This document shows positions 16,163 to 24,452 of a stretch of DNA of 64,000 bases, piece by piece. A model generated the notes under the pieces. That model saw nothing but the letters and a program-made list of their open reading frames with translations, was not told where the DNA came from and did not search any database. Numbering within the stretch: position 1 is the stretch's first letter; the number at the start of each line of letters is the position of its first letter. This DNA is from Alphaproteobacteria bacterium LSUCC0684 (GTDB taxonomy: Bacteria > Pseudomonadota > Alphaproteobacteria > Puniceispirillales > UBA1172), in contig CP166130.1 in NCBI GenBank assembly GCA_041228335.1, forward strand, positions 434,001 to 498,000, given 5' to 3'. Made by a program: the position numbers and the translations under genes.

Positions 16163-16258
16163 CGCATCCTCCTTTGAAGCAATGCATTTATCTGTTAAGG
16201 GCATTTTATGCTGCCATTATGGCCAGCGACTTGCCCATCAGCACCATCATGGTCGCTG
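16163..16258 (-). promoter_or_regulatory. ROSE-like RNA thermometer in the hsp20 leader
   Basis: Reading leftward, the last hairpin before the ATG (16185-16164) is GCATT-G-CTTC, loop AAA, then GGAGGATGC. Pairing is G-C, C-G, A-U, U-A, U-G, a bulged G, then C-G, U-A, U-G, C-G. This buries the Shine-Dalgarno GGAGG opposite UUGCU with an unpaired G, the defining feature of ROSE elements found before hsp20 genes in alphaproteobacteria. Upstream segments can form further hairpins (AGCGAC ... GTCGCT; CTGGCCATAATGGCAG). The outer boundary at 16258 is estimated from the promoter. Confidence 0.65.
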
Positions 16259-16266
16259 ATATATTG

Positions 16267-16296
16267 TATATGGGAAGGGCGCGCTTAAAATACAAG
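16267..16296 (-). promoter_or_regulatory. Sigma32-like heat-shock promoter for hsp20
   Basis: On the bottom strand CTTG (16296-16293) is followed after 18 bases by CCCATATA (16274-16267). This resembles the RpoH consensus CTTGAAA ... CCCATnT at normal spacing. Transcription would begin near 16258 and give a leader of about 95 bases, the size expected for a ROSE leader. Confidence 0.5.
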
Positions 16297-16314
16297 GCCG
16301 CCCATAAGGGCGGC
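16297..16314 (-). terminator. Probable rpmE terminator
   Basis: GCCGCCC-ATAA-GGGCGGC, a perfect 7-bp GC stem with 4-base loop, lies 29 bases past the rpmE stop in its direction of transcription. The following bases (CTTGTATTTT) are only partly T-rich and coincide with the hsp20 -35 element. Confidence 0.55.
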
Positions 16315-16343: not shown

Positions 16344-16568
16344 TTAGCTTTTGGTTCCCAGATTTCCAAAACGCTTGTTGAAGCGGGCAACCTGACCGCC
16401 GCTGTCAAGAATACGATGCTGGCCAGTCCATGCCGGGTGGGATTTCGGGTCGATATCCAGCTTCAATACATCCCCTTCACTGCCCCAGGTGGAGCGGGTC
16501 TTGTATTCGGTACCATCGGTCATGACCACGGTAATTTCGTGGTATTCCGGGTGAAGATCTTTTTTCAT
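16344..16568 (-). CDS. rpmE: 50S ribosomal protein L31
   Basis: 74 residues, starting [19 protein letters not shown] with GGAG 7 bases before the ATG. It has the L31 core ([26 protein letters not shown] and FNKRFGNLG). The zinc-binding cysteines of the C+ form are absent, so it is a zinc-independent (C-) L31 of normal length. The longer frame upstream to 16745 is not part of the gene. Confidence 0.95.
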
Positions 16569-24228: not shown

Positions 24229-24269
24229 ACAGCCTACATCAGAATTACCGCAGCTGGAATGTGCGCCAG

Positions 24270-24452
24270 GTTAACGTATCCCTGGGGCCATAAGACATCT
24301 CTTGGGAGTTGCCTCTGTCCGGGTTGTGGCCCGGGTATCGTGACGCCCACCTGCTAAGCAGGCCACAGAGGATTGTCCATACCAGCGGCATTCTGGCTGT
24401 CGGCAACAGGCGTGGTCCCGATGAAGTAATGTCAATCCGGGAGAGACTGTCC
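24270..24452 (+). ncRNA. ssrS: 6S RNA (boundaries approximate)
   Basis: The 292-base gap between zapA and the 5-formyl-THF cyclo-ligase gene is the conserved place of 6S RNA in alpha- and gammaproteobacteria. The gap is GC-rich and hairpin-rich: GCCTCTGT (24311-24318) pairs with ACAGAGG (24365-24371) around inner hairpins CCGGGTTGTGGCCCGG and CCTGCTAAGCAGG, with further complementary segments outside (CCCTGG near 24281, CCGGGAG near 24437). 6S RNA mimics an open promoter and holds sigma70 RNA polymerase. The call rests on synteny and pairing; I could not run a covariance model, so the ends may be off by tens of bases. Confidence 0.7.

Follow-up and report, generated by a model that had tools for sequence, protein, structure and literature searches.

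Does the leader of the hsp20 gene in Alphaproteobacteria bacterium LSUCC0684, a member of the SAR116 clade (Puniceispirillales), act as an RNA thermometer, and what would those of its hairpins do that lie away from the Shine-Dalgarno (SD) sequence? We took up these questions in a window of 64,000 nucleotides from the single 2.70-Mb contig of this genome. An initial annotation of the window had described a ROSE-like thermometer under a sigma32-like promoter at this gene. The parts that it named (motif, bulged G, multi-hairpin leader, small heat shock protein gene and promoter) were correctly identified and placed, and they turned out to be conserved, with compensatory changes. Our analysis indicates that the hsp20 leader is most likely a ROSE-like RNA thermometer. 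Among the sequences compared, the conservation of the motif in nearly all leaders together with the compensatory changes is what we regard as decisive for a ROSE-type leader; we infer heat control of hsp20 itself.

The hsp20 product matches Pfam PF00011 (E 1.6e-19) and is 51% identical to IbpA of E. coli; its score against the IbpA model NF008013 is 161 bits, under the cut-off of 212. The nearest named relatives show 71-81% identity, and SAR116 cluster metagenome-assembled genomes are among them. No hsp20 match was obtained in one near-complete genome (99%, single contig) from the same SAR116 family; therefore, hsp20 and its thermometer can be absent. Read along the minus strand, the locus consists of rpmE, its terminator (16314-16297), CTTG, an 18-base spacer, CCCATATA, the three-hairpin leader and the hsp20 ATG (Table 1). 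The -35 element of the hsp20 promoter coincides with the T-rich end of the rpmE terminator, an overlap present in the window and in the relative L002. Elsewhere in the window, at 24248-24403 of the plus strand, lies a 6S RNA (RF00013, 61.4 bits).

Table 1. Features of the hsp20 locus, in positions of the window.
Feature	Position	Strand	Basis or remark
rpmE, ribosomal protein L31 (upstream neighbour, outside the thermometer)	16344..16568	minus	PF01197 6.3e-27; PRK00528 118 bits
rpmE intrinsic terminator, tail CTTGTATTTT	16287..16314	minus	tail includes the CTTG of the hsp20 promoter
Sigma32 (RpoH)-like promoter CTTG-N18-CCCATATA	16267..16296	minus	sequence, SAR116 conservation
-35 CTTG of the hsp20 promoter	16296-16293	minus	sequence
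-10 CCCATATA of the hsp20 promoter, after the 18-base spacer	16274-16267	minus	sequence
Hairpin 1, AUCAGC-[G16254]-ACCA-UGA-UGGU-GCUGAU	16237..16260	minus	fold, family covariation
Hairpin 2 (whole), with outer stem GGGCA/UGCCC	16199..16236	minus	fold
Hairpin 2, core GCUG-[G16223]-CCA-UAA-UGG-CAGC, off the SD	16227-16210	minus	fold, covariation
Hairpin 3, ROSE-type SD hairpin GCAUU-[G16180]-CUUC-AAA-GGAG-GAUGC	16164..16185	minus	fold, motif conservation, covariation
Shine-Dalgarno sequence AGGAGG, 5 bases before the ATG	16168..16173	minus	sequence
hsp20, IbpA-type small heat shock protein, 156 aa	15692..16162	minus	ATG 16162-16160

The terminal hairpin bears the ROSE signature: AUUGCUUC pairs with GGAGGAU, leaving one G bulged out. 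The initial annotation had proposed that this hairpin masks GGAGG opposite UUGCU with a bulged G, and the computed fold agrees. U(U/C)GCU opposite the SD with a bulged G is what published work describes as the ROSE-like signature (PMC3669281, PMC11342760), and U(U/C)GCU faces the SD in 79 of 80 named ibpA-type hsp20 leaders from alpha- and gammaproteobacteria. Throughout the 2.70-Mb genome, the pattern TTGCT-N1-12-AGGAG-N4-10-ATG occurs three times, and the reversed control pattern does not occur at all. Among SAR116 leaders, the register of hairpin 3 varies by three bases within the purine tract, from GGAG-GAUGC in the window's family to AAG-GAG in the others, and yet Y-[G]-C-U opposite A-G-G is retained. 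In 20 distinct SAR116 sequences, no variation was seen at the bulged G, at the two pairs after it or at one pair before it, and the outer pairs had accumulated 29 two-sided changes, a number reached by none of 500 shuffles.

Hairpins 1 and 2 carry a single 5'-side bulged G in the same context as hairpin 3, although they lie off the SD. Among ten family members, six of the ten pairs of hairpin 1 had changed on both sides, 95.9% of cells were paired, and the bulged base was G or A. One genus of relatives (L006-L011) has a bulged A in place of the G in hairpin 1, and an extra hairpin, UCUGCUC...GGGCAGA, between hairpin 2 and the SD hairpin. For the core of hairpin 2, an alignment of 25 SAR116 leaders anchored by hand showed two-sided changes in all eight pairs, 93.5% pairing, and 57 two-sided cells compared with 15.7 in shuffles. 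The bulge was a G in all 25, but these sequences had been trimmed by hand around the bulge, so that its invariance is partly by choice; pairing in the outer columns is affected by the trimming much less. Compensatory changes thus support every hairpin of the leader in SAR116, and the three hairpins fall within the two to four by which ROSE-like leaders are recognized.

As an unbiased test, we counted one-base bulges in the lowest-energy folds of the region 5' of the SD hairpin. A 5' bulged G occurred in 85% of SAR116, 98% of other alphaproteobacterial and 71% of gammaproteobacterial leaders, compared with 5%, 9% and 7%, respectively, of control segments taken at these loci; the leaders are related sequences, and these counts are not independent events. 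The other seven types of one-base bulge (A, C, U and 3'-side) were at, near or below the control level in the leaders, none of them enriched. A second method agreed with the enrichment of the 5' bulged G. In alphaproteobacteria outside SAR116, this non-SD bulge is followed by C in 75 of 81 cases and the next base is C in 78 of 81, opposite G-G. At least one such hairpin was present in each of the 30 lineage representatives. A motif-anchored test (YGCC-N3-7-GGR) recovered only a small share of SAR116 cases, owing to variation in the inner pairs and loops, and the unbiased lowest-energy count was used in its place. When the leaders of groES, dnaK, grpE, trxA and bcp in the host genome were searched for the bulged-G array, it was not seen. 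Both Rfam ROSE consensus structures hold one non-SD bulge, so the feature is already on record as a structure; the ROSE papers that we consulted discuss the bulge of the SD hairpin only. To judge from the sequences, ROSE leaders appear to be built by repeating a single kind of hairpin, the one with the bulged G.

Pairing with the SD cannot explain why the bulged G is conserved in hairpins 1 and 2, because these do not cover it. The conservative reading makes the two hairpins a scaffold for folding and stability: they would fold fast, shield the SD hairpin from upstream bases and protect the 5' end, and the bulged G would have been inherited through duplication of the ROSE hairpin. This reading is compatible with the thermometer and competes only over the role of hairpins 1 and 2. 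We regard it as quite possible, if somewhat short of probable. Hairpins 1 and 2 do sit near the predicted 5' end, and in Pseudomonas, heating leaves hairpin I folded and its disruption derepresses the thermometer (PMC3669281). A pure scaffold, however, would hardly be expected to retain one specific bulged base on one side only, and bulges of the other types are not enriched; moreover, the stem sequences vary freely while the bulged G stays.

The more interesting candidate is that the leader serves both as a thermometer and as a platform for its own product. Oligomers of Hsp20 would attach to the bulged-G hairpins and keep translation repressed until clients titrate them away, by analogy with IbpA of E. 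coli, which binds the ibpA 5' UTR and represses itself in a manner requiring Arg93 (PMC10474464). This residue corresponds to R97 of the window's Hsp20, invariant in 14 SAR116 proteins, and the aromatic Y34 of IbpA corresponds to W37. The recurrence of the bulged G in hairpins off the SD points the same way, and the E. coli ibpA leader likewise has a non-SD hairpin with a bulged G. We nevertheless consider such self-binding rather unlikely. A contact of IbpA with the bulged G is hypothetical, binding by an alphaproteobacterial Hsp20 is proposed by analogy with E. coli, and a Pseudomonas leader deleted for hairpin I retains thermoregulation (PMC3669281), though self-repression lay outside that test. 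Generalized, the idea would be that alpha- and gammaproteobacterial ROSE leaders are repeats of a 5' bulged-G module, Y-[G]-(C/U)-C / G-R-G, of which the last copy alone lies over the SD while the others would be recognized, most plausibly by the encoded Hsp20/IbpA itself, so that the leader would sense both temperature and free chaperone. From sequence comparison, we hold this general form to be unlikely.

The thermometer itself was considered against two further alternatives. The whole hsp20 leader has a folding energy of -30.9 kcal/mol, compared with -24.9 +/- 3.3 kcal/mol for dinucleotide shuffles (z = -1.84), and none of 500 shuffled leaders formed three hairpins with a 5' bulged G. Folded alone or with 33 coding bases, the leader has the SD hairpin in its lowest-energy structure. 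When 13 coding bases are included, a competing hairpin, CAUUGC/GCGAUG, gives the lowest energy; what it masks is the start codon and not the SD, as would be the case if the AUG were the part closed at low temperature. A thermometer of that kind is very unlikely, since the SD hairpin returns with the longer coding segment, and since the competing hairpin requires GCG before the ATG, as found in the window and L002, whereas the SD hairpin persists in relatives that differ at these bases. Folding at 25 and 42 C, which the initial annotation had suggested as a check, did predict that opening of the SD rises 3- to 7-fold with warming, but the check proved of no diagnostic value: because the proven E. 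coli ibpA leader rose only 1.5-fold under the same model, the predicted rise does not count as proof or support of function.

A scan with the Rfam ROSE models had been suggested as well, and it produced no usable match in the window, either at the cut-off or at relaxed thresholds. In a search with 116 bases, ROSE_2 was the sole match among 4227 families, at 10.8 bits (E 8.4) with a cut-off of 65. Sub-threshold matches to STnc370 and BjrC1505 rest on the rpmE terminator hairpin and were dismissed as chance. Nine SAR116 relatives likewise gave no significant match to the ROSE models; E. coli ibpA, our positive control, scored 100.4 bits in the same pipeline. The model RF00435 exceeds its cut-off in just 1 of 289 alphaproteobacterial genomes, and the absence of a match thus reflects a narrow model. 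The lack of a match would also fit a structured leader of the ordinary kind, with a strong SD and a fortuitous UUGCU, yet the conservation across all but one of the leaders, the compensatory changes and the near uniqueness of the TTGCT/AGGAG/ATG pattern in the genome make that reading hardly credible. The initial annotation had held that lack of a ROSE match combined with an unstructured SD would speak against a thermometer. By folding, the SD sits in a hairpin, and the claim is therefore not refuted even though an Rfam match is absent.

By its class-defining features, the hsp20 leader is ROSE-like, and it falls outside the curated families RF00435 and RF01832 as they stand. With the rhizobial hspA type (RF00435) it shares the hsp20-type gene, the RpoH-type promoter, UUGCU with a bulged G over the SD in the terminal hairpin, and a bulged G in the first hairpin. 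Sequence and lengths differ enough, however, for the model not to match the leader, and the middle hairpin of RF00435 lacks the bulged G that the window's middle hairpin has. The enterobacterial ibpA type (ROSE_2, RF01832) resembles it in placing a bulged-G hairpin before a bulged-G SD hairpin, but has two hairpins instead of three. The short ROSE-like ibpA thermometers of Pseudomonas (PMC3669281) likewise set U(U/C)GCU over the SD, behind an RpoH-dependent promoter where ours is RpoH-like, and consist of two hairpins in about 60 bases rather than three in about 95. Finally, the ROSE-like and ROSE-G thermometers of ABC transporter genes (PMC11342760, PMC12857270) have a bulged G opposite the SD. 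The window's leader belongs to a different gene and has UUGCU with a single bulge, whereas in ROSE-G the motif reads CUGCU and the SD strand bears another bulged G.

The initial annotation had also placed a sigma32-like promoter at the right distance upstream, predicting a leader of ~95 bases. This assignment held up, for the pattern is conserved in SAR116 and RpoH is encoded in the host genome (TIGR02392, 366 bits, cut-off 323). From the promoter position, transcription should start near 16260, giving a leader of about 95-98 bases. The promoter conforms to the alphaproteobacterial RpoH type (CTTG, a CYTAYAT-like -10, 16-18 bases between). Defined as CTTG plus at least 5 of 7 bases of CYYAYAT at the correct spacing, it was present in 26 of 33 SAR116 hsp20 leaders, in all 47 other alphaproteobacterial leaders and in about 5% of control segments. 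A lone match to the pattern is weak, because the strict form occurs 25 times in the whole genome compared with 15 times for a reversed control pattern; strict matches just 5' of genes include those of hsp20, groES, dnaK, grpE and trxA. A sigma70-like promoter was sought around the hsp20 leader as the source of a start 3' of the hairpins, and none was found. The host genome also holds a gene for a second RpoH-like sigma factor (1861594-1862394; 296 bits, under the cut-off of 323). In its groES leader (about 2302200-2302304 in the genome), a sigma32-like promoter precedes a CIRCE-like inverted repeat, TTAGCACTC-N9-GAGTGCCAA, and an HrcA gene adjoins grpE; the genome appears to combine two heat-shock circuits.

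Taken as a ROSE-like thermometer, the locus would work as follows. Upon heat shock, the RpoH-type RNA polymerase would transcribe hsp20 from CTTG-N18-CCCATATA, as its sequence suggests. At normal temperature, the terminal hairpin would pair AUUGCUUC with the SD, in agreement with folding and covariation. On warming, as published ROSE studies lead one to expect, the weak U-G pairs and the bulged G would let hairpin 3 melt and ribosomes start. The two upstream hairpins are conserved within the leader and repeat the bulged-G core.

In conclusion, our analysis would add the marine SAR116 clade to the groups with ROSE-type heat control, and it implies that the lack of an Rfam ROSE hit says little within the alphaproteobacteria. 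The role of the 5' hairpins of ROSE leaders has been described as incompletely understood (PMC3669281), and the bulged G in hairpins off the SD bears on it. Together with the binding of IbpA to its own 5' UTR, the non-SD bulged G suggests a simple, testable idea of what these hairpins may do.
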